Shown here: one piece after another, positions 18,152 through 35,365 of the stretch | Layout of the letters: the number at the start of each line of letters is the position of its first letter | How positions within the stretch are numbered: position 1 is the stretch's first letter | Origin: Herpetosiphonaceae bacterium | GTDB lineage: Bacteria > Chloroflexota > Chloroflexia > Chloroflexales > Kallotenuaceae | Reading direction: 5' to 3' | Assembly: GCA_036374795.1 (NCBI GenBank) | Contig: DASUTC010000347.1 | Coordinates: forward strand, 62,001-126,000 | Length of the DNA stretch: 64,000 bases | The notes under the pieces: model-generated | The model's database searches: none | What the model saw: only the letters and a program-made list of their open reading frames with translations | What the model was told of the DNA's origin: nothing | Program-made: the position numbers and the translations under genes

Positions 18152-18167
18152 CACGTATTGGAAATCA

Positions 18168-18434
18168 TTGCGCGATTCTCTGTTTGGGGGCCGAATTTTG
18201 GTATTACGCAACGCCATAGCACAATCGCGCAGCGCGATTCTGTCGTTTTGCGTGACTTCCTTGAGCGGCTAGGGAGGTGGTTGGCCCTGAGGACTCGATA
18301 CACCAGAATCGAGCGACGAAATTGGCGGTTTTTCGCGCGATTCTCGAATTTCGGTGCGTGATTCAGAAATTTCCTGCGAGATTCGCCGTTTCGCTGCGCA
18401 ATACGCAGAATCTCGCATGATTCTCGCGTAATAC
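18168..18434. repeat. Iteron-like array, candidate replication origin
   Basis: The nine-base word GCGCGATTC and close variants recur. Five lie in phase at 18335, 18356, 18376, 18396 and 18415 (steps of 21, 20, 20 and 19 bases, about two helical turns), with further copies at 18170, 18232 and 18250 and inverted copies near 18305 and 18405. An AT-rich patch follows at 18450-18470. The array is about 600 bases upstream of the initiator-like gene at 19007. This is the classical layout of an iteron plasmid origin. Confidence 0.6.
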
Positions 18435-19006
18435 CCTATTGATCGACCTTCGTAAATTATTTATGCTGAAAGGGAGATACGGGCAGAAGCTTAAGGTCGT
18501 CATCCTAGATGCTCTCTGATGCACTGACGCATTAAGTTGAGCTTCTACGCCACGGGAACGCAGGATGAAGCTGATGACCTAATACGTGAGATTGATCCCA
18601 TCTGAATAGAGATTAAACGAAATGCCGCCAGCCTGGATCGAGGCTGACGACATCCGACACACGTGTGTACGGGTACGCTCACCCTCAGTATAGCAAGTGT
18701 GCGGATGGCATGTCAATACGTTCGCAGCCCAGGCAACGGGGTAGGAGGTTGTTGTGCGCAAAAAGCACCGTGCATCCTGGCAGATGCAGCGGCCGTTGGG
18801 TTGTACCTGGAAAACAGTCCGGAATCTGCATCCGCGCACCCTGATGTTCGCTCACCCCATCCGACAGGACGACAAGCACCCGGGGGTCCACCCGTCTCCA
18901 GCGCCAGGCGCTAGGCGGCGAGCCTGCTTCTGGAGCGGCACGCTTGCTCTTCAATTCATCCCGGCCCACCCCCTTCGATCGCCCATCACCGTGTGGGGAG
19001 GGAACC
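18435..19006. other. Non-coding leader between iterons and initiator gene
   Basis: No convincing gene. The stretch contains an AT-rich patch (18450-18470) that could be the unwinding site, a short palindrome ACACGTGT near 18660 and, just before the next start, GGGGAGGGAA as ribosome-binding site. I see no perfect DnaA box. Confidence 0.4.
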
Positions 19007-20251
19007 ATGTCGACCGCTAGAATCTTCTTGCCGGACATCCGCTACGATCCCCACGAAACCTTTGAGGCGTTTTGTGCACGCCGGCAGCACGCCTTGTCCG
19101 AGGGTCGCCTGGCCGTGCGCGAGCGCCGCATCTCCGGCGATCTCTACCTGTTCTATGAGCATCTCGTGGAGCGTGTTGGTGCCAACCAGTACACCTGGAT
19201 CGGCGAGGACACCCTGGCCGAGACCTTCCGCGTGGATGCCTCGACGATCAAACGCTGGATCGCCAAGCTGGTCCGGGCGAACCTGATCCGGCGGCAGCGC
19301 CAGTTCGCCACCAGTTCACGGACGTATATCACCGCCTACGACCGCAGCAGTGTGGTGATCGACGCCGACCCTGCCGCGTCCGCGCCCACCACCGCCGTGA
19401 TCGAGCTGCGGGAGACCCAGGACGCGATCCGCGCCACCCAGGTCGCTGAGGCCGCACCAATTGACAGCCAGTCGGATCAGGGCACGGCCCCCGCGGCCGT
19501 TTCTCTTTGGCGCAGATCTGCCCCCACGTTCGGCGCAGATCTGCCCCGTGATCCCATTAAGCGTTCACACTTAAACCCTGGTGGTGGTCGGGGATCTCCG
19601 CAGAATCAGGGTCGGGGTACGCCGGAGATCCGCCTGCTGCTGGAGCGGGAAGGCGTGACCACCTTCTACCTGGCCCCACAGCTCCACCAGACACCCGCCG
19701 AGGAGCTGCGCGCGGTCAGTCGCTACCTGGATCACCAGCCCAACGTCCGCGACCGGGCACGACTGTTTGCGGCGCTCGCGGTGCGCGGCTTCGGGGCGAT
19801 GCTGCTCGCAGGCCAGAACGAGCGACGGCCCCAAGGATCAGATCGGAAACGACGACCAGCACCCACGGGAACGGGCGCACGTGATCCGCTGACGTATATT
19901 TCCGGCGCCCTTGCACCCCTGATCATGGGTGGCCAGCGCCCATTCATGGTGGATGCCACCGCACCTGAATCAAGCGAAGTCCCGCAGGCCGAGGCATCGA
20001 ATCCGGACGTGCAGCACACCTGGCGGCAGGTCCTCGGACGCTTACGGCAGGACCTTCCTGCGAGTGAGATCGCCACCTGGTTCACGGATGCAACACTGCT
20101 GGCCCTGGACGGCGCGCAGGCGATCGTGGGCGTGCCGAATATCTTTGCGCGGGAGCAGCTGACGCGCTGCTATCAGGAGCCGATTGCGCAGGCGCTTGCG
20201 ACCGTCAGGGGGTACCCGGTGCAGGTGCAGATTGAGATCGGCGGTCTGTAG
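19007..20251 (+). CDS. Probable plasmid replication initiator with DnaA domain-I-like tail
   Basis: The start at 19007 is preceded by GGGGAGGG. The 414-residue protein begins with a winged-helix-like region (about residues 40-110, with DTLAETFRVDASTIKRWIAKLVRANLI-like spacing; key motif DASTIKRWIAKL). A variable Pro/Gly/Arg-rich middle follows. The last 85 residues (WRQVLGRLRQDLP, then IATWF, AIVGVPNIFAREQL) match the pattern of DnaA domain I (W..VL..L......F..W......L.V.VPN.F...WL). DnaA domain I recruits DnaB helicase and partners, so the fusion suggests an initiator that loads helicase itself. The iteron array upstream fits this. A second such protein is at 30980. Confidence 0.7.
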   Translation: MSTARIFLPDIRYDPHETFEAFCARRQHALSEGRLAVRERRISGDLYLFYEHLVERVGANQYTWIGEDTLAETFRVDASTIKRWIAKLVRANLIRRQRQFATSSRTYITAYDRSSVVIDADPAASAPTTAVIELRETQDAIRATQVAEAAPIDSQSDQGTAPAAVSLWRRSAPTFGADLPRDPIKRSHLNPGGGRGSPQNQGRGTPEIRLLLEREGVTTFYLAPQLHQTPAEELRAVSRYLDHQPNVRDRARLFAALAVRGFGAMLLAGQNERRPQGSDRKRRPAPTGTGARDPLTYISGALAPLIMGGQRPFMVDATAPESSEVPQAEASNPDVQHTWRQVLGRLRQDLPASEIATWFTDATLLALDGAQAIVGVPNIFAREQLTRCYQEPIAQALATVRGYPVQVQIEIGGL

Positions 20252-20369
20252 CGACGGCGGAGCCGACAGTGAACCTGAATCTCCTGGATCACCCCAGGGG
20301 GAGTCCCGACTCCCCGATGTGGTTGCTTCGCAGCGTGCGGCACGCGCAAACAAACGAGAGGAGAGGCTG

Positions 20370-20588
20370 ATGCCGTGGGAACGGACGACGGGGAGCCGCG
20401 TGAGCTACAACCTCGGTGCGTATCGCGGCGTGGTCGAACGAACCGACGACGACCAGGCGTGGACGGCGCGGGTCGAAGCGCCGAATCAGGTGTATCAGTC
20501 GGTGGTTGACTATCCGACGCTAACCGCAGCGCAGGCGTGGGTCGAGCAGCAGATCGAGGCGTTGCTGCGCGCCCCACCAGGACGCTAA
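20370..20588 (+). CDS. Small hypothetical protein
   Basis: GAGAGGAGAGG precedes the ATG at 20370 at good spacing. The 72-residue product is polar, with a beta-rich centre (YRGVVERTDDDQAWTARVE) and a C-terminal helix (AQAWVEQQIEALL). Its gene follows the initiator gene on the same strand after about 120 bases. Small proteins of this shape are common on mobile elements, but I cannot name a family. Longer in-frame starts back to 20184 overlap the initiator gene and lack a ribosome-binding site. Confidence 0.6.
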   Translation: MPWERTTGSRVSYNLGAYRGVVERTDDDQAWTARVEAPNQVYQSVVDYPTLTAAQAWVEQQIEALLRAPPGR

Positions 20589-20827
20589 CCCGACGGCTGC
20601 TAGGGTCGCGAACGCCGTTCTTCCAGCCTGTCTACCACCCGCGTCCACGGAGCAGCCATGCTGAGGACGGCATATCTTCACACGCACCCGATCACTTACT
20701 CGACCAGCACAGGCTGCCGATCACCCGCCGTCCCCGCGACAACCTGAATCTTCCAGAGGAGGTGCGTCGTCTCCAACTGCCCCAGACCCTCACGCAACCC
20801 ACGATGAGCGGTACAGCAAGCAAGGGA

Positions 20828-20902
20828 GCAAGCATTACAGCATACCATACTGCTTGCTTGCAAGCATTACAGCATACCATACTGCTTGCTTGCAAGCATT
20901 AT
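20828..20902. repeat. 32-bp direct repeats downstream of the ParA locus
   Basis: Two perfect 32-base units (20828-20859 and 20860-20891) and a partial third that enters the end of the small parB-like gene. Each contains GCAAGCATTACAG and ends TGCTTGCTT, so GCAAGC and GCTTGC half-sites alternate. Together with the array at 22143 they bracket the ParA locus like the two centromeres of type Ib systems. The rest of 20589-20827 shows no gene. Confidence 0.65.
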
Positions 20903-21333
20903 AGCAAACCTTTACGCTTAAGGTACGCCTGCGCGCCCTGACTACGACCAAACTTACGCGTCTCCGCTTGTTCTAACTCGCGTTGCTCCTGCTCGTAGAG
21001 ATTGAGGATCACCTGATCTGGATCTTCCTCCATCCGTGTGAGCATGGTATCGAGGGCCAGACGTAGCACTTCTGCCGCGCTCATCTTGACTCGCTTCTCC
21101 GCGTTCCAGCGAGCGAGCATGGTGTCGAGCTGGTCAAGTTGGGTACTTCGATAGGTCGCGGTTGCCTTCTTCCAATAGGGCCCCTGCTCCAGTACCGCAC
21201 GTTCCGCAGTCACTGCACCTTCCTCCGTTGCTTCGGGAGGGACTGGTGCAGATGTTGAGCGAGCCTCATTGGTTGATCGACCAATTTGACCGACCACATT
21301 CGCGACATCTGACATACTAGGACGTTTACGCAC
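20899..21333 (-). CDS. Small ribbon-helix-helix ParB-like partition protein
   Basis: The 144-residue product has a flexible N-terminal half and a C-terminal ribbon-helix-helix-like region (about 75-115: ATYRSTQLDQLDTMLARW, then AEVLRLALDTML), as in the centromere-binding proteins of type Ib partition loci. I prefer the GTG at 21333, preceded by AGGAG and overlapping the end of parA by eight bases; the next ATG, at 21315, would drop six residues. Coupling to parA supports a shared operon. It should bind the flanking GCAAGC repeats and repress its own operon; that is inference from the family. Confidence 0.7.
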   Translation of the reverse strand: MRKRPSMSDVANVVGQIGRSTNEARSTSAPVPPEATEEGAVTAERAVLEQGPYWKKATATYRSTQLDQLDTMLARWNAEKRVKMSAAEVLRLALDTMLTRMEEDPDQVILNLYEQEQRELEQAETRKFGRSQGAQAYLKRKGLL

Positions 21334-22087
21334 GAGCAAGGATCTCCTCTGCCAAGGCAGCGTAGGCCGCTGCGCCGGTATTCGTCGGATCGTATTGCGC
21401 AATGGGCTGCTGAGCAAGTGCCGCCTCGGAAAACCGGATGGAGCGGGGAATGATTGTGTCAAACAAGCGGAGATCCGGGCGATTGCGGAGCGCCGTGAGA
21501 ACATCGCGAGCATGGACGGTCCGAAGGTCGGCGAGTGTCGGCAGGACCCCTAACATCTGGGCCGCCTGCGTGTACTCCGCTTGCACCTCCGCCAAGGTCT
21601 CGACAAACAACCCAAGCCCACGCAGAGCCAGCGCATCGAGCAGCGTTGGAACAAGCACCCACTGCGCAGCCACCAGCGCATTGATCGTCAGCATGCCCAG
21701 CGACGGCGGGGCATCAATCAGGATGAGGTCATACCGATCCCGAAGGGGTGCCAGCACACGGGCGAGCTGGTGTTCACGCGATGCGCGGACGACCAGACCC
21801 AACTCCGTCCGGCTTAACAGGATGTCGCCCGGCACCAGATCGAGACGCTGCCCGATGGGGCGAATGATGGCGGCAATCTCTGTCGTCCCCCGCTCGGTAA
21901 TTCCGAGGACATGCGCCAGGTTCGCCTCGAACGCATCGAGGCCCAGCATGGACGTGAGACTCGCTTGGGGATCGAGATCGACGAGCAGCACCCGGCGGTG
22001 CTGTTGCGCCAGCGACCAGCCAGCGTTCAAGACGGACGTGGTTTTGCCAACGCCGCCTTTTTGATTAGCGAATGCGATGATAGGCAT
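21326..22087 (-). CDS. parA: ParA family partition ATPase
   Basis: The 253-residue protein has the deviant Walker A KGGVGKTT near residue 9, Walker A' in VLLVDLDPQAS and Walker B in YDLILIDAPPSLG, which together define ParA/MinD ATPases. It lacks an N-terminal HTH, as in type Ib systems. The ATG at 22087 places the P-loop at the usual distance; a longer frame to 22147 reads into the repeats. The small RHH gene overlaps its end. ParA on the nucleoid moves plasmid-bound partner complexes. The 48-base repeats lie just upstream of the start. Confidence 0.9.
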   Translation of the reverse strand: MPIIAFANQKGGVGKTTSVLNAGWSLAQQHRRVLLVDLDPQASLTSMLGLDAFEANLAHVLGITERGTTEIAAIIRPIGQRLDLVPGDILLSRTELGLVVRASREHQLARVLAPLRDRYDLILIDAPPSLGMLTINALVAAQWVLVPTLLDALALRGLGLFVETLAEVQAEYTQAAQMLGVLPTLADLRTVHARDVLTALRNRPDLRLFDTIIPRSIRFSEAALAQQPIAQYDPTNTGAAAYAALAEEILARA

Positions 22088-22142
22088 ACCAGCTAGTCTA
22101 TATGCAAGTCTGAATGAATGCAAGCATAGTGACACGTTTGCT

Positions 22143-22298
22143 AGCAAGCTTTATAGGAGTATGATAAGCACTAAAGCTTGCTAGTCTTAATGCAAGCTCT
22201 ACAGGAGTATGATAAGCACTAAAGCTTGCTAGCTTTAGTGCAAGCTCTACAGGAGTATGGCAAGCAATAAAGGTTGCGAGCCTTAATGCAAGCTCCAT
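22143..22298. repeat. 48-bp tandem repeats upstream of parA
   Basis: Three units of exactly 48 bases (22143, 22191, 22239) and a partial fourth at 22287. Each starts TGCAAGCT or AGCAAGCT, has AGGAGTATG in the middle, and ends with AGCTTGCTAG-like sequence, so GCAAGCT and AGCTTGC arms face each other. They lie between the parA start and the PHAX gene and probably serve as centromere and operator. Confidence 0.7.
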
Positions 22299-22338
22299 TG
22301 CTTATTCCCAGGCACCCTAAACGTACATGATTAAAGAA

Positions 22339-23043
22339 TTATCCTGCCGCCTCGGTACGCTGTGCTTCGCGCTTGGCCTGCTGCTGCTTCTTTGTGGTCA
22401 CGTTCAAAGCGTATACGGTGATTCCAGCATGGCGCGGCTCGTAGGCGGGGTAGCCCTCGATGATCAGCACGTCCTCGGCATCCTTCACCACCCCGGCGAC
22501 TTTGTTCCACTGCTTCTTTGCCACCAGCACGAGATAGTTGGTCTCCTTCGGCGGCGCGGGCAGTCCTTTCGGGAGTGCAGGCTGTTTGTCATTGAGCAGG
22601 CCGAAGATTACCACGTCGCCCCGCTCGACGACCTGCGAGGGACGGCCGATCACGGTCACTTTCACGGTTGCTGCCTTTCCGTACTGCTGCGAGAGGGATT
22701 GCAAGACGTCCGGCAGCTCCTCGGCCTGGAACGGCGGCGGGGCTGCCTGCTTACTCTGCTGCGGACCGCCAAAGACCTTGCCGCGCTGCTGCTTGGTCAT
22801 CCGGTTGCGGGCCAGGTGGAAGAAGACGCCGCCGGTCGTGCGCCGCCGGTTCTCCCGTTCCAGGAACAGCCCGCCTGCGGCTTCAATCGCCTGCGTCTCG
22901 CGCAGCAACTCCTGAGTGACGTCCGCGCCCAGGATTCGGATGATGCGCCAGATCTGGCCCACAGCCTGTGGTGCGGTCTCGCCCAGCACCTCGGCGATCT
23001 GCGCGACGAGCTGGCGGGTAGTTGGTTGTGGGTGTTCGCTCAT
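22339..23043 (-). CDS. PHAX RNA-binding-domain protein
   Basis: The N-terminal third of this 234-residue protein matches the pattern of the PHAX RNA-binding domain: an alpha-helical stretch with VAQIAEVLGE and IRILG, then AAGGLFLERENRRRTTGG with VFFHLARN. The Gly-Gly, the Arg triplet and the TxGGVF turn are the hallmark of that family, known from the eukaryotic snRNA export adaptor and also present in some bacteria. A Pro-rich linker (about residues 105-120) leads to a C-terminal beta-rich domain (about 130-225) that I do not recognise, followed by a Lys/Gln-rich end. The ATG at 23043 has no clear ribosome-binding site. Role on a plasmid is unknown; RNA binding is likely. Confidence 0.75.
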   Translation of the reverse strand: MSEHPQPTTRQLVAQIAEVLGETAPQAVGQIWRIIRILGADVTQELLRETQAIEAAGGLFLERENRRRTTGGVFFHLARNRMTKQQRGKVFGGPQQSKQAAPPPFQAEELPDVLQSLSQQYGKAATVKVTVIGRPSQVVERGDVVIFGLLNDKQPALPKGLPAPPKETNYLVLVAKKQWNKVAGVVKDAEDVLIIEGYPAYEPRHAGITVYALNVTTKKQQQAKREAQRTEAAG

Positions 23044-23247
23044 AGGGGTATTTTCGCAATGGAGCGGCACGCCGTCAAGCCGATATGCGGTACTCGGCTA
23101 GGGCGTGAACTACCGGTACGGTTGTAATTTGCCGCTACGTGCCGAAGTCATACTCGATCGGCTTGTAACGCTTTTGGCAGCAACCCTGTGTGGTGGCCTG
23201 ACCCTGAAAATCCAGAATATAAGGACGACATACATGTGCGACGGGAT

Positions 23248-24576
23248 TTACGCCTCTAACACAAGCTTCAATTGTCGAAGGTGTAGAGTCGGCGAGTAGG
23301 CTATTGCCAACGACGGGTTCGATACGAGTTGAAAACGGAACTTTTGCAGCAGCATCGCTAAAACCAGTCTCACTTCGAGGAGCGCAAACGTCATTCCGAT
23401 ACACATTCGCTCACCCGCTCCGAACGGAAAGTATGCGAGGGGTTGAGACGGCTCACCGCGCGAAAACCGTTCGGGATCAAACCGTGTAGGTTCGGTCCAG
23501 TAGGTTGGCAGGCGATGTGTTACGTATGGGCTCAACATAACGAGAATCTTCGTCTGAGCAACATTCAGCAAATAGTCTCCGATCCTGAAGGTCTCAGATG
23601 TCCTTTTCGCAATGTGCCACGCTGGTGGGTAGAGGCGCAGCGACTCCTTAATAACATGCTGCAGCAGCGGAATTCGGTCGAGGACATCGTGATCGGGCGG
23701 TTGCGTTCCCGCAACATCCTGGATCTGGTTCCGCAGCGCCTCTTGAATCGACGGATGGCGGGCCAATAGGAAGAGCGTCCATGTCAGGACCGTAGCAATT
23801 GTCTCGTGGCCGGCTAACAAGAGTCCGAGAAGCTGATCGCGAATAGCACGCGTGCTTAAGGACTGATTCTGATCATCAAGTACCTGTGTGAGTTGGGTCA
23901 GCATATCTATGCCGCTTGGCGTTGCCCGTTGCTGAAACTCGATCCGTTCATCGACAGCACGATGAATCGTTGGAATAGCTTGTTGTAGCCGGTGGTATGG
24001 AGTACCCGGCACCCTGAGTGGTAGGTTCTTGATCGCATGGACCCCGATTAGATTAGCGATGTAGCTGAAAATGCCATCAAGCCCTTGACTCAGCGCTAGC
24101 TGCCGATCACGCAGATCAATGTCGCCAAACAGAACGCGTCCGATAATGTATAGAGCAAGGTGATGTGTCGCTCGACTGATCTCTATTTGCTGGCCACTGT
24201 GCCAGTCCTGCATCATTTCGTGGGTTGCACGCTGCATCAACTCCGTATATTTCGCCACCTGCCGTCGGCTAAAGAAGGGTTGTAACAGTCGCCGCTGCTG
24301 ACCATGTGCTTCGCCGTCCACCGTGATCAGGCTTGTCCCGATCACTTGTTTTAATGGGCCATAGACTTGTCGGAATATTCTGGCTTGATCCACCAAAATG
24401 GTCCGAATGCTGGCAGTATCACCAGCAAACACCACGGGCGTCGATCCAAGGCGAAACTGGCATGGTGAGCCAAAGCGATGTTCGAGATCGACGAGGAACG
24501 AGATTGGATGACGTTGAAACGCAAGGAGGCTGCCAATGCCCGGTAATCCAGTCGGACCCGGTAACTGTGTGGTCAT
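23248..24576 (-). CDS. Cytochrome P450
   Basis: The 442-residue protein is of normal bacterial P450 length. It has the I-helix AGHET (255-259), ExxR in ESLRL (E311, R314), the PERF motif near 368 (FDPERF) and the heme-binding FPFGAGERMCIG (383-394) with Cys392 as heme ligand. No membrane anchor is seen. Its ATG overlaps the stop of the upstream prenyl-synthase-like gene by one base (TAATG), so it is the last gene of the diterpene operon and most likely oxidises the diterpene product, using electrons from a ferredoxin system not encoded here. The substrate is inferred from context only. Confidence 0.92.
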   Translation of the reverse strand: MTTQLPGPTGLPGIGSLLAFQRHPISFLVDLEHRFGSPCQFRLGSTPVVFAGDTASIRTILVDQARIFRQVYGPLKQVIGTSLITVDGEAHGQQRRLLQPFFSRRQVAKYTELMQRATHEMMQDWHSGQQIEISRATHHLALYIIGRVLFGDIDLRDRQLALSQGLDGIFSYIANLIGVHAIKNLPLRVPGTPYHRLQQAIPTIHRAVDERIEFQQRATPSGIDMLTQLTQVLDDQNQSLSTRAIRDQLLGLLLAGHETIATVLTWTLFLLARHPSIQEALRNQIQDVAGTQPPDHDVLDRIPLLQHVIKESLRLYPPAWHIAKRTSETFRIGDYLLNVAQTKILVMLSPYVTHRLPTYWTEPTRFDPERFSRGEPSQPLAYFPFGAGERMCIGMTFALLEVRLVLAMLLQKFRFQLVSNPSLAIAYSPTLHLRQLKLVLEA

Positions 24577-25436
24577 TATTCGTTTTCCTCATGGCTTGCT
24601 GGATACCAATGCTCGCCCAGGCGACGGCCTAAGCCTATTACGACATCCTGCATCCACGTATCCCGGTGCATAATCGCCGTTTCGGCACGTCCTTGTTTAT
24701 CTTTACGCCATGTCTTCCGCGTATAAGCGGCATCGTAGAGAATGCGTCGAAGAAGATGCGGTGGCAGATAATAGCCAGGTCGTTGAATCCAGTAACACTG
24801 CAGATCCCCTATCAGTAATGGTGGGACCAGTGCTGGAGTTATCGCAGGCTTGCCCGAAGCAATATACAGATTCGCTAACGGTACAGATTCGCCATAGAGT
24901 TCCTGGATGACAGCCTCTCGCGTTTGACGTTGACTCCGGAGAACCGCATCAAACATCCAGCGAAAGGGTGCGTCCTCGTCAAGCATGACCATCCACCACA
25001 GCGTATGGTGGGTGTCCTGTGTTGTACGGTCCCGAAGAAAATGATTTGTATCGACCAAGGAAGGAAGCTCAGCACCGCCCAATAACCGGACCCGCCAGCC
25101 GAGCTGGCGGTAGTCGGCCATTGCTGATTCGCCAGCAATCACGGAGTGGGCATATGTTGCCAACATCTCTTGGTGCGCGCGATTCTCTGCCCAATTGGTT
25201 GGGACAATCGCCGCTGTGAAGACATGTTGGATGCCATGCTGGAATAGCTGCTCAACTGCCTGAATTAATTGGCGGCGACTCCACTGAACATAGTCGTCGC
25301 TTTCGGGTCTTATTCCTGCTAGCGCCGCTGCCCGACGTGTGCCGCCTGGCATATAAATGACGGTACGCGGTGCGATTGCAGCTACCGTCGCCTGATCGGC
25401 GGCCAGAAAGGTTTTTAGGTCAGGTGGATCTGTCAT
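24576..25436 (-). CDS. Rv3378c-like diterpene synthase (prenyltransferase fold)
   Basis: The 286-residue protein resembles the family of Mycobacterium Rv3378c (tuberculosinol synthase) and the Herpetosiphon kolavelool synthase, which have a cis-prenyltransferase fold but remove or replace the diphosphate of a cyclised C20 precursor. Visible support is IYMPGGTRRAAALAG near residue 30, where undecaprenyl synthases have MDGNRRWA, and overall length. The gene overlaps the class II cyclase gene by four bases (ATGA) and is followed by the P450 with a one-base overlap. Expected reaction: conversion of a halimadienyl-, clerodienyl- or kolavenyl-type diphosphate to an alcohol or ether. The exact product cannot be read from sequence. 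Confidence 0.75.
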   Translation of the reverse strand: MTDPPDLKTFLAADQATVAAIAPRTVIYMPGGTRRAAALAGIRPESDDYVQWSRRQLIQAVEQLFQHGIQHVFTAAIVPTNWAENRAHQEMLATYAHSVIAGESAMADYRQLGWRVRLLGGAELPSLVDTNHFLRDRTTQDTHHTLWWMVMLDEDAPFRWMFDAVLRSQRQTREAVIQELYGESVPLANLYIASGKPAITPALVPPLLIGDLQCYWIQRPGYYLPPHLLRRILYDAAYTRKTWRKDKQGRAETAIMHRDTWMQDVVIGLGRRLGEHWYPASHEENE

Positions 25437-26923
25437 TCGGCTCCCAGGACAGCACGACTGGCTACCAGTGCGGTTAAGGACAGGATACGATCAACCAAAA
25501 TGGGCGAATACAATTGTTTTCCGATCCATGTATCAGGCACCGGATCATCAATGTGTTGATCCAACCAGTGATGAGCTGGGGCAAGCATTGGTTGGATCAC
25601 AGCATCGAACCGCGGTTGAAGCACTAATAATGCCAGCATGGCAAAAGTGGTATCTGGTAGTTGAGATGATGTTGGTCCCCACCCGCCATCGGGGTGTTGC
25701 TGCCTCCGCAGCGCATGCATCGTCGAGTCGAGTGCCTGCTCTACCGCTTCCGATGGAGGTGCGAGGGACAGGGGTAACATCGCATGCCAGGCACTATACA
25801 GCCAGCTGACATTCCACTTATCGCGCGGCCAGGTGCCATCTGGAAGCTGACGGGTACACAACCGTCCAACCTCAACATCTATGTTATAGCCATCAATCGC
25901 TAATTGCTGCAGCATACGACCTTGCACCGAAATGGAGCCATGCATCTCCCCTGGATAAGCAGTGAACCCACTCGACATAAACGGCTGAAATATCTCTATG
26001 GCTTGTGGACCTTGCCGACCGGCCGCTCGCACAATTGCTACCGCGGCCGCGGTCGTATCGCCGTCGGTCTGAAAGGCATCACTCATACCAGTACCCCCCG
26101 CAGTACGGAGTCGTTGCAGGAGGTCGTCGACAATCGGTGCGATGAACAACTGTATTTCCGGCTGCTGAAGCAAGCCGAGCGTCGCGAGACCGTAGAGGCT
26201 AAACGTTTGTTCAAACCGAGAGATAGGCCATACGGTTGGGACAACCCCATAAATATGCACACCAGTCGCTGCTGCCGACTGGTGTATATATCTCAAGGCT
26301 CGGGTTCGTGCTCGCTCAAATGAGGGATGCTGCGCTCGGTGCAGCCACAAAGCGGTCGCTGAGGGACTGTGACCAATGCTGCCTGCTCCATCCAGCAGGT
26401 TCTCATCGGCATCTGCACCCCATATTTCCCAGGAGTGCAACGCAGGCGAACCTGCGGCGATCGCTTGCTGTTTGAGCCTCTCCATTCGCCGCCGACTAAA
26501 CTCCATTAATGCCTGATCGGCAAACGGGGGAACGTCCAGGTGGGCTACCCGCGCTTCGGCGACCAGATTCGGAATGATGATCTCGGCTGCAACCGAAAGA
26601 TCAGGCGGAAGCTCCCGTGGCCAGAGCTGATCGATCTCTTGAAGGAGCTTGAGCGCAGCGGCGATTTCGGGGGTGTGCGGATTGATTATCTGGAGGGCTA
26701 AGATAGCAGAGAGCGTCGGGATGATTCGATGGAGCGGTTCATGCGGGTCTCCCCATCCACCATCGGCATACTGTTGATCAAGGAGCCAGGAGATTGCGGG
26801 CTTGACATTGTGCCAGGTGGCAAAACGAATACACTGGGCAGTGTCATAGATGGATGGGGTTATAGCCCCATCCTGTCCAAGCTGCGTAAGAGCAGATAAC
26901 AGCCGTACAAGGGGGGTGTCCAC
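25433..26923 (-). CDS. Class II diterpene cyclase
   Basis: The 496-residue protein has the alpha-barrel style of terpene cyclases: QW-type motifs YADGGWGDP (52-60) and HPDGGWGP (late), and in the middle DGDTTA (287-292), a DxDTT variant of the DxDD motif that protonates GGPP in class II cyclases. The same variant type is reported for the Rv3377c group. The start is a GTG at 26923 with GCGAGG upstream. It should cyclise geranylgeranyl diphosphate to a bicyclic diphosphate (labdane, halimadane or clerodane skeleton). It overlaps the next gene by four bases and lies 53 bases after a sensor kinase gene on the same strand. Base composition is visibly more AT-rich than the flanking surface-protein genes. 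Confidence 0.82.
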   Translation of the reverse strand: MDTPLVRLLSALTQLGQDGAITPSIYDTAQCIRFATWHNVKPAISWLLDQQYADGGWGDPHEPLHRIIPTLSAILALQIINPHTPEIAAALKLLQEIDQLWPRELPPDLSVAAEIIIPNLVAEARVAHLDVPPFADQALMEFSRRRMERLKQQAIAAGSPALHSWEIWGADADENLLDGAGSIGHSPSATALWLHRAQHPSFERARTRALRYIHQSAAATGVHIYGVVPTVWPISRFEQTFSLYGLATLGLLQQPEIQLFIAPIVDDLLQRLRTAGGTGMSDAFQTDGDTTAAAVAIVRAAGRQGPQAIEIFQPFMSSGFTAYPGEMHGSISVQGRMLQQLAIDGYNIDVEVGRLCTRQLPDGTWPRDKWNVSWLYSAWHAMLPLSLAPPSEAVEQALDSTMHALRRQQHPDGGWGPTSSQLPDTTFAMLALLVLQPRFDAVIQPMLAPAHHWLDQHIDDPVPDTWIGKQLYSPILVDRILSLTALVASRAVLGAE

Positions 26924-26976
26924 GATCGGCCTCGCTTTATAGCATGGGTTTATCTCGCCATTACATCAGGTACTTC

Positions 26977-28230
26977 CTATGGTAATGGTAAGAATATATT
27001 AACCCATGCGCCCCCTTTATTACTACCCCCATTATTACCAATTTTAACCGAGCCATGATGCCAAAGTACGATTGCTCGAAGCAGGTTCAGACCCAGCCCA
27101 CCTATCCCTTTGGCACTTGGCACAAGCATGCTGAGATCCCCACGTTCAGCACTATTAATTTGACGAATAACGGCGGGCGGAAATCCGGGGCCGTCGTCCT
27201 GGATGCAGAGCAGCACAGAATGACCGTCTACGGAGGTCGAGATTGATATATCGACCCTTGCTTTGCCACTACGACTGCCGGCTTCTATCGCATTACGTAC
27301 AACGGTGTCGAGTGCCATGAGCAAATATGCAGGTATGCAGCGAATGACTGCGTCTTCAGCGATTTCGTCACGAATCGTAACGGGTATTTGATATTGCCAA
27401 ACGCTGCTTTCCTTCACAAGATCAGAAATCAATCCACGCAGTGAAACAAGTTGGAATTCTTCAGGCAACTTACCTTGCGCAATAACTAGCAGATGCTGCA
27501 TCATCGTATCCAGACGTTGCGCTCGGCCTTCGAGTCCTCCAAGGACGACGCCATCCCAGGATTCCGTTAAATTCACGGAGCCGTCGGCGACACCCCGAGC
27601 GAGGGCGACCAAGCCACGGACCCCGTTCGCCTGAGCCTGCAGTTCATGTTGAAGGCTCCGGATCAGCATACGAAAATTGCGCTCTATTTGTAGTTGTTGC
27701 TCGGTATCAACAAGCCGGTTTGCGTCTTTCAAGGCACGTTCCAGAGAATGCATAATGATACCGACGATCAGCCCCGTCATCACTATGGTGAACAGCGCCG
27801 TGGACGAGTTGATTGTCCACATACTATAGGCGATCCCAAGTGACACAAACAGCACGACCGCAGTACCTAACAAAATCCAGATACCTCGCGCGCCGCCCGT
27901 AATACCGCCAATTGCAATGGCGATGATATACGTGGTGCCGAGCGGGGAATCCATCAGATCGGGGCCTGGGAGTGTCGAGATGCAATAAATTAAAGCCCCT
28001 GCAAGACCATACCCTCCTATCAGGAGCGACTTTTGATTGCGAGCGGTAAAGGCAACGATCGAAAAAATCATGAGGATGCAGCAATTCACCAGGTTAAGAC
28101 GAGTCATGAGTGGATTTAATAACACGATTGGCAGCGCGATTATTGATGCGATGCCGAGCATCAAGGCCGCCGTGCGTAGTAACCACAAACGTTCCCGCAT
28201 ATCCACAGGATGCTGAATACGAGCGTTCAC
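26977..28230 (-). CDS. Membrane sensor histidine kinase
   Basis: The 417-residue protein has about six N-terminal membrane segments (residues 15-175) with hardly any periplasmic loop, then a coiled helix and a kinase core. The phosphoacceptor His is in LIRSLQHELQ (about residue 195), the N box is VVRNAIEAG, and ATP-binding boxes are IQDDGPGFP and GIGGLGLNL. The GTG start at 28230 has GAGGAAC upstream. It sits directly before the diterpene genes on the same strand and is divergent from a response regulator 60 bases away, so it probably forms a pair with that regulator and may sense a membrane-related cue that controls the operon. Confidence 0.85.
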   Translation of the reverse strand: MNARIQHPVDMRERLWLLRTAALMLGIASIIALPIVLLNPLMTRLNLVNCCILMIFSIVAFTARNQKSLLIGGYGLAGALIYCISTLPGPDLMDSPLGTTYIIAIAIGGITGGARGIWILLGTAVVLFVSLGIAYSMWTINSSTALFTIVMTGLIVGIIMHSLERALKDANRLVDTEQQLQIERNFRMLIRSLQHELQAQANGVRGLVALARGVADGSVNLTESWDGVVLGGLEGRAQRLDTMMQHLLVIAQGKLPEEFQLVSLRGLISDLVKESSVWQYQIPVTIRDEIAEDAVIRCIPAYLLMALDTVVRNAIEAGSRSGKARVDISISTSVDGHSVLLCIQDDGPGFPPAVIRQINSAERGDLSMLVPSAKGIGGLGLNLLRAIVLWHHGSVKIGNNGGSNKGGAWVNIFLPLP

Positions 28231-28290
28231 TTAGTTCCTCGCTTTGTCCCGGCCCACTATACTATAGTCTAAGCATAGGGAGCCTACCGC

Positions 28291-29142
28291 ATGATAGACG
28301 GAACTCTAGATCTTTTGCTGATTGAAGACGATCCGATGGACGCTACAGTTCAAACGCTAATTCTTCGGTCAGTTGGCTGTCGAGTCTCCCTCGCCTCGTC
28401 GGTTGTGGAAGGCGAGGACCTGGCAATGGCGATGCTTGCCACAACGAACACGCAACCTGTCGGCATCGTCACAGATCTTAAGCTCCGCGACCTGATACTT
28501 TCGCGGATCGAAGGATCTGCACTTGCGGCTGTTCTTGCCGGTCGGATGCTGGACGGATTGATTCGTCCAGCACCAATCATTGCGATTACGAGTGACATGA
28601 CGGATGAACGACGCAACGAGGCGTTAAGTGCTGGGTGTACCCTCGTGCTTTCAAAACCGCTCCGTATTGATCAGGCATCCCAGATTTACGATCTTACGAT
28701 GCACTATACGACTCCAACCGTTGATCCAGTTCGTGCGCACGGCATCCAACTCCTACGCGGCTTTATGGAAAAAGTCCTAAGCAGCTTGCGGGAAAATCGC
28801 CCTCCAACGGTTTGGACAGCCGAGGCTATTTTCCAGATCCTATGTGCCGTGACCTCGTACTCCCCGCCCCGGACGGCGGCATTTGCTCTAGATCCGCACA
28901 AGCAAGCCGTGCTTGTGCGATCGATGGGAGGTTCCCAGCTTGCTAGGGAATTACTCGAAAGATACGCGCTGATGGCACGAGAAACTCCTGCTGGCCGAAT
29001 GATCGCGCTGTATTTGGAGGGCTATCCAACTAATCGAGTGATCCACATCCTGATTGATCGAGGATACGCCAAGAGCTACCTCTACCGCGTCAACGAGCAC
29101 TTGCCAGAATTGATTAGTAAATGGATCGCCGCTCAGATGTAA
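28291..29142 (+). CDS. Response regulator with unrecognised C-terminal output domain
   Basis: Residues 1-135 form a receiver with acidic pair in LLIEDDPMD, phosphoacceptor Asp in GIVTDLKLRD, Thr/Ser in AITSD and Lys in VLSKPLR. The receiver has a longer alpha-2/beta-3 region than usual. The remaining 145 residues are mostly helical and end with MIALYLEGYPTNRVIHILIDRGYAKSYLYR-like spacing (key motif NRVIHILIDRGY), which fits a helix-turn-helix output. It is divergent from the sensor kinase gene, with the 60-base gap holding TATACT and TATAGT boxes on opposite strands. Probably the transcription factor for the diterpene operon; that is inference. Confidence 0.75.
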   Translation: MIDGTLDLLLIEDDPMDATVQTLILRSVGCRVSLASSVVEGEDLAMAMLATTNTQPVGIVTDLKLRDLILSRIEGSALAAVLAGRMLDGLIRPAPIIAITSDMTDERRNEALSAGCTLVLSKPLRIDQASQIYDLTMHYTTPTVDPVRAHGIQLLRGFMEKVLSSLRENRPPTVWTAEAIFQILCAVTSYSPPRTAAFALDPHKQAVLVRSMGGSQLARELLERYALMARETPAGRMIALYLEGYPTNRVIHILIDRGYAKSYLYRVNEHLPELISKWIAAQM

Positions 29143-29302
29143 GCACGTAGCACCGTTCGGACTGAACGGAGCTTACGCTCCACGATACGCTATACCTGTC
29201 CCCTGCAACAATCCTCCAGCTAAATAGGGGACAAAAAGGGGACTTTTATAGACTGTATCAGGCGAATGCACTGTTAGACTACTGTGGCATGCGCCACTGG
29301 TA

Positions 29303-29346
29303 TATAATGTGCTGTATTTTACAGCGAACTTACTGTAAAATACAGC
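29303..29346 (+). promoter_or_regulatory. Promoter -10 box with palindromic operator of four half-sites
   Basis: TATAAT at 29303-29308 is followed directly by GCTGTATTTTACAG (29311-29324), an eight-base spacer and its perfect reverse complement at 29333-29346. Each 14-base arm is itself an inverted pair CTGTA-TTT-TACAG, giving four half-sites across the probable transcription start. The tandem ribbon-helix-helix protein encoded at 29394 is the obvious candidate to bind and autoregulate here. The 250 bases between 29142 and 29394 otherwise hold no gene. Confidence 0.7.
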
Positions 29347-29393
29347 ACGATTGCCCTGGATTACAGATTAGACAGTTAACGAGGGCAGACAGT

Positions 29394-29792
29394 ATGCGGA
29401 GAGAGTTTCAATTGACGGTTGATCGGCAACTCTACGATCGCGTAGCTGCTATTGGCCGGGATGACCATCGTAGCTCTGTTCCCGAACAGATGGTTGCCAT
29501 GCTGTCGAAGGCGGCTGCACAGTGGAGGAAGTTGGCGGTTCAGGCCGTCATAACGCCGCTACCTGCTCCAGTCGCCATCGAGTCAGTGCCGGTTCGCCTA
29601 AACTTTAGCCAAGAGGAGTTCCAACAGATCGAGCGCCTTGCCCGGCAAGATCGTCGATCTCCAACGAAACAAATTGTGTTTATGCTTGAGTTGGCGGTGG
29701 AACACTGGCCGGAGCTGTCAGGCCACAAGAAGTGGCCTGATCCACCGTTGACAGATATAAGACGAGCGCCTGCGATGGTTCCTACCGCATAA
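29394..29792 (+). CDS. Tandem ribbon-helix-helix DNA-binding protein
   Basis: GAGGG lies before the ATG at 29394; the longer frame from 29289 crosses the operator and is not used. The 132-residue protein contains two similar units: residues 1-45 (REFQLTVDRQLYDRVAAIG then EQMVAMLSKAAAQW) and 66-105 (VPVRLNFSQEEFQQIERLA then KQIVFMLELAVEHW). Each fits a strand followed by two helices of the Arc/MetJ ribbon-helix-helix fold. These proteins normally dimerise; here both halves are in one chain, so the monomer may act like a dimer. The four half-sites upstream fit two such molecules. Confidence 0.75.
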   Translation: MRREFQLTVDRQLYDRVAAIGRDDHRSSVPEQMVAMLSKAAAQWRKLAVQAVITPLPAPVAIESVPVRLNFSQEEFQQIERLARQDRRSPTKQIVFMLELAVEHWPELSGHKKWPDPPLTDIRRAPAMVPTA

Positions 29793-29860
29793 ATAGGATC
29801 TTAACCAACGCAGGCGCTCAGTGGTGCGTGATTTGTTTTAGGGAGCGAATCGCGCACCAC
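29764..29860 (+). other. Two nested/adjacent long inverted repeats at the gene end
   Basis: The first pairs 29764-29780 (GAGCGCCTGCGATGGTT) with 29803-29819, 17 bases with one mismatch, and straddles the stop codon of the ribbon-helix-helix gene; its loop contains CCTA and TAGG. The second pairs 29821-29833 (GTGGTGCGTGATT) with 29848-29860, one mismatch. There is no T tract. They may terminate transcription, or be a recombination or replication structure resembling an integron attC hairpin. Confidence 0.5.
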
Positions 29861-29926
29861 CACCCCCCGCTGGCATAAGAATCAACAGAGGTGGCGGATT
29901 CATTGTAGCATAACGATATTGACTTT

Positions 29927-29959
29927 TATCTACTTTGATATGCCGTATCAAGGTAGATA
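29927..29959. repeat. Isolated 14-bp inverted repeat
   Basis: TATCTACTTTGATA (29927-29940), five bases, then TATCAAGGTAGATA (29946-29959): one mismatch in 14. It lies in AT-rich non-coding DNA between convergent small genes and could bind a dimeric regulator. No gene starts immediately next to it. Confidence 0.5.
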
Positions 29960-29996
29960 GAGACGTTTCCTATTCTTAGCACACGGGACATACTCG

Positions 29997-30077
29997 CTAG
30001 ACGTGCTGATTGCTACACTGATGCCGAGCTACTGAAGATGCGATGTCATCTTCTTCCTCTTTGATCTGCGCCATCAT
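29997..30077 (-). CDS. Possible 26-residue acidic peptide
   Basis: GGGAG stands six bases before an ATGATG pair at 30077. The short product is acidic (KEEEDDIASSVARHQCSNQH). In the same frame upstream, residues EDDVASSYNATR resemble EDDIASSVARHQ, so the segment seems to have been duplicated, in DNA as well as in peptide sequence. A precursor peptide is conceivable, but no maturation enzyme is nearby. Coding status is uncertain. Confidence 0.3.
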   Translation of the reverse strand: MMAQIKEEEDDIASSVARHQCSNQHV

Positions 30078-30268
30078 TGATACTCCCTTTCGATTTAACC
30101 TAGTCGCATTGTAGGAAGATGCAACATCGTCCTCGATGTTCCCCCCTGATTCTGTTCCGGTATGGTGGGTGTTAGAAACCGCCCACATGCTTGGCAATTA
30201 TGAACAATTGCAACACGAATTGTTCAGCATACAGGCACTTCGCGCCAGGATATAGAAACGGGGAGTAC

Positions 30269-30760
30269 ATGGGAGCCCAGATTGTTGACTCACTCGCGCG
30301 TCTCAGGGTTGACGACCCTACCGATTCAACGACCCGGGTCGTTGTGCTTGAGGATCGAGCTGGTCCTGACGACGACGTTTTTAATACTCGGGTCGCTGAT
30401 GCAATGGCCGTTGCGCGCCTTCGCAGCAATGTGGCGAACGTCACGGCTCCTGCTCTTGATGATTGCGCTAGGGTTCTCCGCATCGTCGATGAGCTGAACA
30501 CCACAATCCACCTGGGTCGAATGGAGGTGGAGCTAGCACGTGTTCTGGAAGAAGCCTTTGCCCAAACGGCTGCCCGCTTGAACGACTTGGTTTGTGCGCT
30601 TAATCGTCTTGGACTCTTCCTCGTTCCGTCTGGCTCAGACCATTGGGGTTTTCGCTGGAACTTTGAGGGGGAGGTGAAAGGACCGTATCCTGACTTAATA
30701 GAGACTGTTATTGCTGCGTTTCAAGTCCCTGGTAGCTCGCCCAATATCAGGGATGCCTAA
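30269..30760 (+). CDS. Hypothetical protein upstream of the second initiator
   Basis: The ATG at 30269 follows GGGGAG closely; in-frame alternatives at 30191 (TTG) and 30200 would add a Cys/Asn-rich stretch unlike the rest. The 163-residue product is helical and acidic, with VRVDD- and VVLEDRAGPDDDVF-type loops and a C-terminal part rich in aromatics (SDHWGFRWNFEGE). No family is recognised. It reads toward the initiator gene at 30980, separated from it by a stem-loop and a palindrome. Confidence 0.6.
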   Translation: MGAQIVDSLARLRVDDPTDSTTRVVVLEDRAGPDDDVFNTRVADAMAVARLRSNVANVTAPALDDCARVLRIVDELNTTIHLGRMEVELARVLEEAFAQTAARLNDLVCALNRLGLFLVPSGSDHWGFRWNFEGEVKGPYPDLIETVIAAFQVPGSSPNIRDA

Positions 30761-30776
30761 CAAGTAAAAAATAGAG

Positions 30777-30806
30777 CAATGGCTCTGTGCGAGAACAGAG
30801 CCGTTG
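30777..30806. terminator. Stem-loop between two genes, possible terminator
   Basis: CAATGGCTCTGT pairs with ACAGAGCCGTTG around a six-base loop, one G-T wobble. On the plus strand no T tract follows; on the minus strand the hairpin is followed by a run of six T. It may act in either direction. Confidence 0.45.
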
Positions 30807-30824
30807 CCCCCCAATGATGGCCTT

Positions 30825-30845
30825 ATCATGTTGCTGCAACATGAT
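30825..30845. promoter_or_regulatory. Perfect palindrome upstream of the second initiator gene
   Basis: ATCATGTTGC and its exact reverse complement are separated by one base. It lies 135 bases before the start of the initiator-like gene and is a likely operator for copy-number control. The remaining 30846-30979 shows no gene; AAGGAG at 30964 is the ribosome-binding site. Confidence 0.55.
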
Positions 30846-30979
30846 GATAACAATCCGATCCAGGGCTGTCAATGGAGGGAATGCAAGAGGAGATCCTCCA
30901 TGTCGTATTTGTATGTACTCTCTTGCCGGGCGGAGCATGATCAGCAGCCCAGGAACCAATCACGGAAGGAGTCGCGGTA

Positions 30980-33166
30980 ATGCCTCCTTCTCCTGGCTTG
31001 TACCGTTCTGGGGACATCGGGGTTTCTGCCGAATGGCGAGCGATCAGCTATGACTGGCCGTTCGTATTAACGCCGCTAGGCGTGGCGATGTATGCCTACC
31101 TCCGCGATACCTATGAGCAGCAGCGGGCCATGTTCCCGTTACTGGTGAAGCCGGAGGGGCCGACAAAGCAACAGATGCAGCGAAAGCTGGGGAAACGCTC
31201 AGCGTGGGCGATCCAAGGGCCGGAATATCTCCTGCGCGTCACGGGATTGGCAGATGTTGTCGTGGACTACGGCCAAAGCTCCGATCCAGCGCATCCCCAG
31301 AGAACGCGAGTCGCCTACTACACGATTGGTCGTCTCGATCAACCTGTCCTTAATTGGGCCATGCTCAGTCACGTTCTCGATGCGTTGGTGATTGGCCTTG
31401 ATTCATCGTCCGGTCACGCTGATGATCAGAAGGCTCAGTCGGCAATCCAGGCGCTGAAGCAAGGAGGTTTTCTCCAGGAAGGAGAACCTGGGGATCTCTT
31501 CTGGGAACTTGGTGCCTGGCCGCATCTCCTGCCTGCCTTAATCAACGATCCCCGTTGGGAAGCGATCTACAGCTCACTGCACACAGCTGGTGCTATTCGT
31601 CCCTATCGTGAGCAAGCACGGCGCTGGGTGGAGTACGCGCTGCAGAAAGCGGCGCGGTTAGCCCACGAGAACCAGGCGATGGCCGACATGCTGCAAGCTG
31701 CGCAGCGACGCGGACCCCACGGCGCTCATCCCACCCGCCCAGCAGTTGACACGTCCCGTGTATCAGTTCCGTATCAGATTCCAGCGACACAAGCTCATCA
31801 AGTGACTTCCATAGCTTGTGTCGCTGACGAGTCGCTAGATTGTCGCGAAGCTGTTGAAGTCACTTCCATAGCTTCAGCGACTCTTCTTCGCGGATCGCAT
31901 AGCAATACGATCAATCCGCTATCAGATCATAGCGACTCGGAGTCGCTGGCGCGCGATCAATTAACGTTAACGAGTCTGTCTGTTAACAAGAGAGACTCCA
32001 GAGACTCCTTTTCTGGAGCGACATCACCTGGCGACAGCACGCTCAACATTCAGCCCCACATCCGCCAAGAGGAACTCCATACGACAAAGCTCGATACGGT
32101 GTTTTGGGCGACTGTTAATCAAATTCTCAACGGTACCTTGGGTCGCTACCCGCATTCGGCTGGAGAGAAAAAAGCCGCAGAGAGGCAATTTTCGCAGCGC
32201 AACATTCCATCAGGTGTCGCGCTGGCCGCCCTCCGCCTGGTTATGACGCTCCCGGTCGAGCTTCGTCCTCGTACCTTCGGGGAGGCCCTCAAGCTCGATA
32301 CATTCCAACGCGCTGTTCAGCAAGGATTGCTCTTGCTACCGGCACGACCACACGTTGCGCCAACGTGGGAATCGTTTCTCTGGACCTACCGAACGGTTGG
32401 CCTCACTGATCGGCTTCGAGACGTTGGGCACGCCGACTATATGGTTCTGCGTTCCCTCTATGAACGCAACCCGGACGAATGCTGGGAGGTCTTGAGTCGC
32501 TGCCAACATGCCCAGTCGCCAGCGAAACTTACGCCCCAATATCTGCGGAGAGCTATCGCCAATAACCAGCGCGCGGCGGCCGAACAGATCCTATCACCTG
32601 GATCAAGTCAGGAGTTGCGGCATCCAGTTGTGGTTGATCCACGGTATGCGTTACTCACTGCCGAAGGGCTGGCTGGTGTCGCGCTGTCGGACGACATCAC
32701 GGAGGAGTACATCCGAGCCTGGATCATGGAGGCTGATCATCGAGCGTCGGGTATCAAAACGCGACCTGGTTGGCTACGGTGGGGTATTCTCTCTGGCTAT
32801 TGGCCGCATGAGCATCCGCAACTTCCACCCCGGCCCGGACAGCCCGTGAGCATCCCACCTGCGCACGATCTGGCACAGATCCCTGATGCTCAGCCCGAGT
32901 CTGAATGGGCACGGCTCTGGGGGGATGTACTCATGCGCGTTCGGGACGCGGTATCTCCGAGCGACTATGCAACCTGGATTCAATCGACGCACCTTGTCGA
33001 TATGAGCGATGAGGTGCTGGTGATTGCCGTGCCACATGTGTTGGCACGGGACGGTCTACTTAGCACGCCCCAGTTGCTGCAGACCCTGACCGCGTGTGCA
33101 GCAGCGGTCATTCCAACCTGTACCGACATCACCATCGTGATTGATTCAGGGGTGCCATTATGCTAA
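30980..33166 (+). CDS. Second initiator-like protein with DnaA domain-I-like tail
   Basis: AAGGAG precedes the ATG at 30980. Of 728 residues, the first 250 look like a replication-initiator wing-helix region (TPLGVAMYAYLRD, KQQMQRKLGKRSAWAIQGPEY-type spacing). A low-complexity Ser/Thr-rich linker (about 270-365) and a helical middle follow. The last 90 residues (LWGDVLMRVRDAV, YATWIQSTHLV, LVIAVPHVLARDGL) fit DnaA domain I, as in the protein at 19007. The next gene overlaps its end by seven bases. It is probably the initiator of a second replicon; the iteron region at 18.2 kb is not adjacent, so its origin may lie nearby, for example around the palindromes at 29.3-30.8 kb. The initiator role is inferred. 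Confidence 0.65.
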   Translation: MPPSPGLYRSGDIGVSAEWRAISYDWPFVLTPLGVAMYAYLRDTYEQQRAMFPLLVKPEGPTKQQMQRKLGKRSAWAIQGPEYLLRVTGLADVVVDYGQSSDPAHPQRTRVAYYTIGRLDQPVLNWAMLSHVLDALVIGLDSSSGHADDQKAQSAIQALKQGGFLQEGEPGDLFWELGAWPHLLPALINDPRWEAIYSSLHTAGAIRPYREQARRWVEYALQKAARLAHENQAMADMLQAAQRRGPHGAHPTRPAVDTSRVSVPYQIPATQAHQVTSIACVADESLDCREAVEVTSIASATLLRGSHSNTINPLSDHSDSESLARDQLTLTSLSVNKRDSRDSFSGATSPGDSTLNIQPHIRQEELHTTKLDTVFWATVNQILNGTLGRYPHSAGEKKAAERQFSQRNIPSGVALAALRLVMTLPVELRPRTFGEALKLDTFQRAVQQGLLLLPARPHVAPTWESFLWTYRTVGLTDRLRDVGHADYMVLRSLYERNPDECWEVLSRCQHAQSPAKLTPQYLRRAIANNQRAAAEQILSPGSSQELRHPVVVDPRYALLTAEGLAGVALSDDITEEYIRAWIMEADHRASGIKTRPGWLRWGILSGYWPHEHPQLPPRPGQPVSIPPAHDLAQIPDAQPESEWARLWGDVLMRVRDAVSPSDYATWIQSTHLVDMSDEVLVIAVPHVLARDGLLSTPQLLQTLTACAAAVIPTCTDITIVIDSGVPLC

Positions 33167-33750: not shown

Positions 33751-33911
33751 TCCTGCCACTGAGCGCACCTTGGACACAGACGACCAGCAGCGTATTCGAG
33801 CGCGACCTGCAGCAGCAGGTCCTCATACGACATCGTTCTAGCTTTGCTATTAGCCTGCTTTCGCGGTGATGGGCTGCGCGAGCAACCAGTTTCAATCAGA
33901 CGGAGCCGACC

Positions 33912-35352: not shown

Positions 35353-35365
35353 CAGGAGCGTGCAG

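Follow-up and report, generated by a model that had tools for sequence, protein, structure and literature searches.

Two genes in a draft genome of a Herpetosiphonaceae bacterium (phylum Chloroflexota; assembly GCA_036374795.1, contig DASUTC010000347.1) raise the question of why proteins that are not DnaA should end in a domain typical of it. Both lie in the 64,000-nucleotide stretch analysed here (positions 62,001 to 126,000 of the contig; hereafter the window), where P0001 (19007..20251, + strand) encodes 414 amino acids and P0002 (30980..33166, +) encodes 728. An earlier note, made from the sequence alone, had taken the two for a plasmid initiator family built as a winged helix plus a C-terminal DnaA domain I, and had suggested a new replication strategy. 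The reading that we favour, with a probability of roughly 0.62, is that P0001 and its relatives are iteron-binding, plasmid-type initiators that would recruit the helicase machinery of the host through a host-matched domain I.

A DnaA domain I forms the C-terminus of both proteins. Residues 336-398 of P0001 match the Pfam family DnaA_N (PF11638) with 42.2 bits (E 6.9e-11) and residues 645-691 of P0002 with 27.2 bits (E 3.2e-6), both above the curated cut-off of 24.6 bits. The reading frames lie exactly where they had been placed, and the motifs of the modules, which span residues 336-414 of P0001 (20012..20248, +) and 645-728 of P0002 (32912..33163, +), are present as W339..VL..L, ATWF and VGVPN in the former and W647..VL..V, ATWI and IAVPH in the latter. 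The P0001 module is 53% identical to domain I of the host DnaA; that of P0002, in which the equivalent of Phe46 is lost, diverges most among the 12 of the genome and forms a long branch in the module tree. The last ~80 residues of both proteins are predicted to fold as H-H-E-E-H-H-E (H, helix; E, strand) with a predicted local distance difference test (pLDDT) score of ~90 (~92 for the P0002 module), and the best match of both models in the Protein Data Bank (PDB) is the solved DnaA domain I 4tps (template modelling score by target 0.82-0.90), so that the fold check proposed in the earlier note returned no differing fold. Since three DnaA domain I sequences were among the alignments fed to both predictions, however, these folds do not count as independent confirmation of the sequence match. 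A profile built from 15 modules plus the host DnaA (16 domain I sequences) matches 4tps with E 1.6e-21 and 2e0g of E. coli with E 1.3e-14. A chance motif match was ruled out by Pfam, the PDB match and the fold.

The rest of each protein is unlike DnaA, as neither has an AAA+ domain III or a domain IV and the module sits at the opposite end; the lack of an AAA+ domain rules out degenerate DnaA paralogues. Bac_DnaA of Pfam matches neither protein, and the NCBIfam DnaA model reaches 24.5 bits on P0001 (cut-off 343.9) and finds no match in P0002. P0001 begins with a weak winged helix-turn-helix (wHTH) region (~residues 36-121), followed by a linker, and its body may be related to phage O-like initiators, with matches to the phage protein families phrog_270 (replication initiation protein, E 6.7e-5) and phrog_345 (E 1.9e-3). 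The same search with P0002 gave no match, and no winged helix was found in it by sequence; a winged-helix-like N-terminus together with a C-terminal domain I is supported for P0001 only. Pfam detected neither a Rep_3 nor an RPA domain in the two proteins, and no RepA_N domain at E <= 1.

The whole genome contains 13 DnaA_N matches, one of which is DnaA (locus L022), while the other 12, including ten members beyond the two named before, all carry the module at the C-terminal end (the distance from the start of the module to the stop codon is 77-106 residues). Type A proteins (~400-470 aa, weak HTH_36) are P0001, L018, L024, L026 and L027; type B (~730-820 aa) includes P0002, L019, L020, L021 and L023; type C (~515-545 aa) has a DnaD_N domain in L025. 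Hidden Markov models of the three bodies, built without the module, do not match one another at 1e-2. A single protein family was ruled out on the same grounds: the initiator part of the earlier proposal is supported, but instead of one family there are, as judged by profile comparison, three unrelated N-terminal types sharing one add-on module.

Elsewhere in the phylum, DnaA_N matches number at most 3 per genome in a sample of 400; two near relatives outside this sample have 5 and 6, and the module is C-terminal in all 15 further non-DnaA proteins of near relatives. Fifty-two genomes (counted by eye) have at least two matches, and 44 of them were surveyed (G000, G013, G036 and G038 were treated apart; G205, G213, G382 and G401 were left out). 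Their 93 places, 80 of which were fetched and 13 left out, yielded 50 DnaA genes, 16 proteins with a C-terminal module, 13 non-DnaA proteins with an N-terminal module and one unclassified place (L120, masked). Family f5, which was placed in the class of the window, contains proteins whose best local match to a protein of a 918-kb T. roseum plasmid reaches 55-73% identity in five of the six genomes examined, while in the remaining one the match is confined to the module; a relationship of type B to the T. roseum protein was not supported by comparison. A search of 50,697 phage records with the module (tblastn) gave 8 weak matches only, two annotated as DnaA and six in unannotated records, and IMG/VR scans gave one short weak match for type A and none for type B; a phage origin of the module was rejected on these few weak matches. 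The genome-contig scan with type A returned three loci, all of them DnaA genes, and tblastn of whole P0001 and P0002 against plasmids returned nothing.

Two side observations concern the same domain. The N-terminal-module proteins (~500-720 aa, families f13/f45) are found at L123, L124, L126, L127, L138, L147, L151, L157, L163, L165, L166, L168 and L181; three of the genomes that carry them (G045, G140, G350), one with two copies, are single contigs, and these copies are therefore chromosomal or integrated. Several genomes of the phylum have two true DnaA genes (L134/L135, L144/L145, L194/L195 and others; families f43 and f21).

The densest 9-mer cluster was sought in a region of 11-20 kb around each gene and compared with six shuffles. 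The top cluster lies directly upstream of the gene in 7/7 type A and C loci (tied with other windows in three), the upstream 1.5 kb being 7-13% of each region scanned, and within the gene in 5/5 type B loci (two tied); it exceeds all six shuffles in 11 of the 12 regions and equals the largest shuffle in L028. Upstream of P0001, an array of 11 sites on both strands (18163..18441, core GAATCgCGC) is a candidate origin, with up to 7 sites per 300 bp as compared to 4-5 in the six shuffles of the region. The consensus varies by locus (AGTGCAA at L018, CGGCA-type at L025, CCCGCA at L026, CAGCGACA in type B). Type B clusters cover codons ~241-429, which encode the linker; in P0002 this part holds five CAGCGACAC-type sites within 246 bp (31703..31948), a cluster that ties for first place in its 20 kb region. 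No DnaA box (TTATCCACA, at most one mismatch) was found in the 7/7 type A and C upstream regions, although only 0.1-0.24 boxes per region are expected by chance, which makes this absence weak evidence; a cluster of boxes is present at the host dnaA locus, and several occur at the dnaA loci of four relatives.

In the mechanism that we propose, the N-terminal body, for which iteron binding is the putative function, would bind its own iteron array, which precedes the gene in types A and C and lies within the linker-coding part in type B. The C-terminal domain I would recruit either DnaB, the replicative helicase of the host, or the host loader, as DnaA domain I does at oriC. Because the module itself would recruit DnaB or the loader, DnaA boxes would not be needed at the plasmid origin; such independence from DnaA, like the recruitment itself, is a putative property. 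Moreover, since the recruited partner would be that of the host, the module would be kept matched to the host DnaA or replaced from it, and the DNA-binding body would be exchangeable. The module thus probably lets the plasmid call in the host copying machinery by itself.

The modules do resemble the DnaA of their own hosts. In a comparison of 44 DnaAs with 40 modules from 20 genomes (three of the 43 modules, L114, L115 and L196, have no host DnaA), the similarity to the own-host DnaA has a mean z of 1.715, which none of 5000 permutations reached, although the permutation leaves shared descent in. All five modules of G004, placed on different bodies, rank the G004 DnaA first and share with it the signature FVRQE, which occurs in 0/18 other modules of family f1; the 12 modules of the present genome read [FL]AR[ED]. 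The same likeness could arise by vertical inheritance of one old fusion, without selection or recapture. Many modules of one family do cluster, those of f5 form one clade apart from the f5 DnaAs, and the approximately unbiased test allows all f1 Rep modules to form a single clade (p-AU 0.158). A single clade is, on the other hand, rejected for type A modules (p-AU 0.015) and marginally for type C (0.046), though not for type B (0.12); host-like modules stand on unrelated bodies, with the G004 signature crossing types; and modules of G215, G217 and G384 form starred clades with their own DnaA, in a tree of few columns. We regard plain descent as unlikely, and the trees indicate that some lineages have recaptured domain I of their host. 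The clearest apparent module swap is L177, whose body shares 44% identity with the T. roseum protein across 235 aa and whose module groups with the DnaA of its own host.

Which partner the module would call in can be approached through known contacts of domain I. Glu21 and Phe46 of the E. coli domain bind DnaB and Trp6 dimerises (PMC5448010), while the same face in B. subtilis (Thr26, Trp27, Phe49) binds DnaD (PMC10201431). Trp6 is kept in 43/43 modules, B. subtilis Trp27 in 35/43, Phe46/49 in 29/43 and Glu21 as E/D in 24/43; in the 12 modules of this genome, Trp27 is kept in 12 and Phe46/49 in 11. Helicase recruitment by the modules is plausible, and is favoured because these interface residues (Trp27, Phe46/49) are largely retained and the module resembles that of the host. 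One may also imagine, as the main alternative, that the module docks the host DnaA by domain I dimerisation at a box-less origin, and that DnaA then opens the DNA and loads DnaB. Such docking would accord with the invariance of Trp6, the E. coli dimerisation residue (PMC5448010) and best conserved position, with the likeness to the host DnaA, as expected of a heterodimer face, and with origins without DnaA boxes. It accounts less well for the largely kept helicase/DnaD face and for the position of the FVRQE signature, which lies on that face, in helix 3, and not on helix 1; it seems rather unlikely, and recruitment of the helicase or its loader is preferred.

The 12 proteins of this genome represent 11 rep loci, P0001 and P0002 sharing the window, and partition genes accompany most of them. 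Next to the P0001 origin lies an AlbA/RecG-C-like HATPase_c_4 gene (17056..18084, +), with homologues at 8/11 rep loci, and downstream of P0001 a gene for a ParA partition ATPase (21326..22147, -; AAA_31, 156 bits), with homologues at 7/11. ParB_N was confirmed at L019, L024 and L025. Among the type B genes, P0002 is 9 kb from parA, and L020, L021 and L023 have no parA within the stretch fetched. A conserved neighbour of type B is an RNase_T-type exonuclease gene, which in the window overlaps the end of P0002 (33160..33750, +) and is also found at L020, L021 and L023. It may be asked whether type B genes are integrated, non-autonomous relics or accessory genes of an exonuclease and surface-protein cassette, with P0001 as the working initiator. 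The very long branch of P0002, its lost Phe46, its five intragenic sites as compared to 13-17 in L020, L021 and L023 (obtained with different scoring), and conserved neighbours that are RNase_T and Peptidase_C25 and not par all point this way, whereas the intact reading frames, the predicted intact fold of the P0002 domain I and the ParA, ParB and HATPase_c_4 genes adjoining L019 point the other. We give this explanation somewhat less than an even chance; P0002 itself may be a decaying or specialised copy of type B. The same parA-less loci (three of the five of type B) and the distance of P0002 from parA would also fit plasmid decoys or regulators that, by binding partners of domain I, would slow down or time initiation in the host, as SirA does by blocking DnaA-DnaD in B. 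subtilis, and these partners are indeed regulatory hot spots (PMC5448010, PMC10201431). This is highly improbable in view of the iteron arrays at all 12 genes, the rep-par gene order at most loci and the joining of the module to known Rep domains on Rubrobacter and Hymenobacter plasmids.

The last point comes from complete circular plasmids. An RPA-type Rep of R. tropicus carries the module as a fusion; R. marinus encodes it as a separate gene of 146 aa behind RPA, and in Hymenobacter BRD128 it comes after the second half of Rep_3. A search with the R. tropicus Rep found 7 Rubrobacter records, including itself, with coverage to near the C-terminus; the 30 records found with the Hymenobacter gene comprised the gene itself, 27 matching in the Rep part only and 2 in the DnaA part only. 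A further indication of initiator function is provided by G359, a genome of two contigs, the first of which begins at dnaA. The second (1.25 Mb) bears the sole other DnaA_N protein, and its rep gene lies 2.1 kb from the cumulative GC-skew minimum, as sampled in 31 stretches of 20 kb. On the 918-kb plasmid of T. roseum, the published base 1 of which was placed by skew (PMC2615216), strong positive skew starts at the gene.

Several observations nevertheless weigh against the initiator reading. The distance to the skew minimum is 170 kb for the T. roseum gene and 15 kb for that of R. tropicus, in a plasmid of 205 kb, while the skew of R. marinus is too weak to use; G359 thus remains the one clear match in position, next to one weak match (R. 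tropicus), one miss (T. roseum) and one uninformative case (R. marinus). The contig of the window (206.5 kb) shows no end overlap and no clear skew, its circularity is not supported, and the genome draft has 4.9% contamination. Host matching is not universal: the own host ranks first, ties included, for only 15 of 40 modules, some rank it low among the 44 (L161 29th, L187 28th, L174 15th, L189 14th), and most modules of G003 and G002 do not copy the FARE of their own DnaA. Trp6, which serves dimerisation, is conserved more strongly than Phe46, the helicase contact, in keeping with docking to DnaA. Finally, DciA was not found in the genome, and DnaD_N matches occur in 5 of 21 genomes, those examined (all except G004:C101, G000:C278 and G014:C49) being Rep-type or phage-like genes only. 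Host DnaD was rejected as a partner on the latter ground, as far as the matches were examined. One of the phage-like runs (L003, G000:C367:32105-35479) consists of a DnaD_N protein, a helicase-loader-like ATPase and a DnaB helicase.

How much of this is new depends on the known systems. DnaA-like proteins (DALP) of Rickettsia plasmids are variable except for a C-terminal DnaA_N (PMC4316617, PMC9098888), and a region with parA and the dnaA-like gene supports autonomous replication (PMC3244465), which lends support to the initiator reading and lowers its novelty. Against it, the C-terminal part of the dnaA-like gene of pRAM32 is split off by 2 kb of transposase sequence, yet vectors bearing that region replicate (PMC3244465). 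The likeness is one of layout: a variable body with a C-terminal DnaA_N, beside parA, as is the case for P0001, P0002 being 9 kb away. The differences are another phylum, bodies of several unrelated kinds and a copy number of 12 in a single genome; iterons, host matching and module capture are not stated in the available parts of PMC4316617, PMC9098888 and PMC3244465. The architecture is therefore not wholly new.

RepA_N plasmids (pSK41, pPR9) likewise combine a winged-helix body with a host-matched C-terminal recruitment domain; the body is exchangeable, pPR9 having a pfam13730 HTH, and the part of rep that encodes the linker contains the origin (PMC5703833). Type B, with its iteron clusters inside the linker, shares this arrangement, while types A and C, with upstream arrays, do not. 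The matching of the C-terminal domain to the host genus is also shared, with exceptions such as the low-ranking L161, L187, L174 and L189. However, the C-terminal domain of RepA_N is DnaD-like and binds DnaG, whereas here it is DnaA domain I and no RepA_N domain is present. Iterons by the rep gene and a par module are common to the iteron theta plasmids (RK2 TrfA, pSC101, Rep_3, RPA), and Rubrobacter RPA and Hymenobacter Rep_3 relatives bear the same module, although P0001 and P0002 are without either Rep domain; classic iteron plasmids, in contrast to the type A and C upstream regions, bring in the host DnaA via DnaA boxes (PMC4980987). With DnaA itself, the proteins have in common domain I, its fold and its interface residues. 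No report of host matching, repeated capture or iteron anatomy of such proteins was found in the open literature, and these features, together with the multiplicity, appear to be new.

The surroundings of the two genes offer further candidates. A 204-aa gene after parA (20899..21513, -), ribbon-helix-helix-like by eye and with no Pfam match over the cut-off, probably encodes the DNA-binding partner of ParA. Tandem 32-bp repeats with a dyad (20828..20923; two identical copies and one 69% copy) are a candidate parS or second iteron set. A CAAGCTTTA-like repeat that occurs seven times in the region upstream of parA (22145..22277) is a candidate partition operator. Other short-repeat clusters, with a different sequence at each locus, lie upstream of parA at L026 (4059-4282) and L019 (13627-13731); the tied clusters at these three places may be partition sites. 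The protein encoded next to parA (22342-23070, -) matches the PHAX RNA-binding domain with 63.1 bits (cut-off 25); this domain is otherwise known from eukaryotic RNA export. Between the two rep genes (23248-28230, -) are genes for a cytochrome P450, a protein without Pfam match, a squalene-hopene-cyclase-like protein and a histidine-kinase-like ATPase, possibly a terpenoid cluster on the element. Type B rep, the RNase_T exonuclease and Peptidase_C25 form a repeated cassette (33160-44077 in the window; L020, L021, L023) with at least four copies in the genome, that of L023 additionally sharing an SdrD_B/DUF11 surface protein. The same contig encodes a KaiC-type ATPase (7611-9074) and an FtsK/SpoIIIE-type protein (12506-14881).

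Contacts of DnaA domain I are known in few bacteria, and the host range of plasmids is hard to predict. Natural fusions that share domain I alone, often matched to the host, isolate the surface that calls in the replisome and offer a direct test of whether this surface suffices without the rest of DnaA. For the present bacterial group, which to our knowledge has few genetic tools, they offer replication modules, and the hosts of plasmids may be predictable from an 80-residue tag. Tentatively, and with the odds slightly against it, DnaA domain I may be seen as a portable host-address tag, which plasmids, megaplasmids and phage-like replicons of several phyla would repeatedly take from their resident host and bolt onto unrelated iteron-binding bodies, bypassing DnaA and resetting their host range by exchanging the tag for that of a new host.

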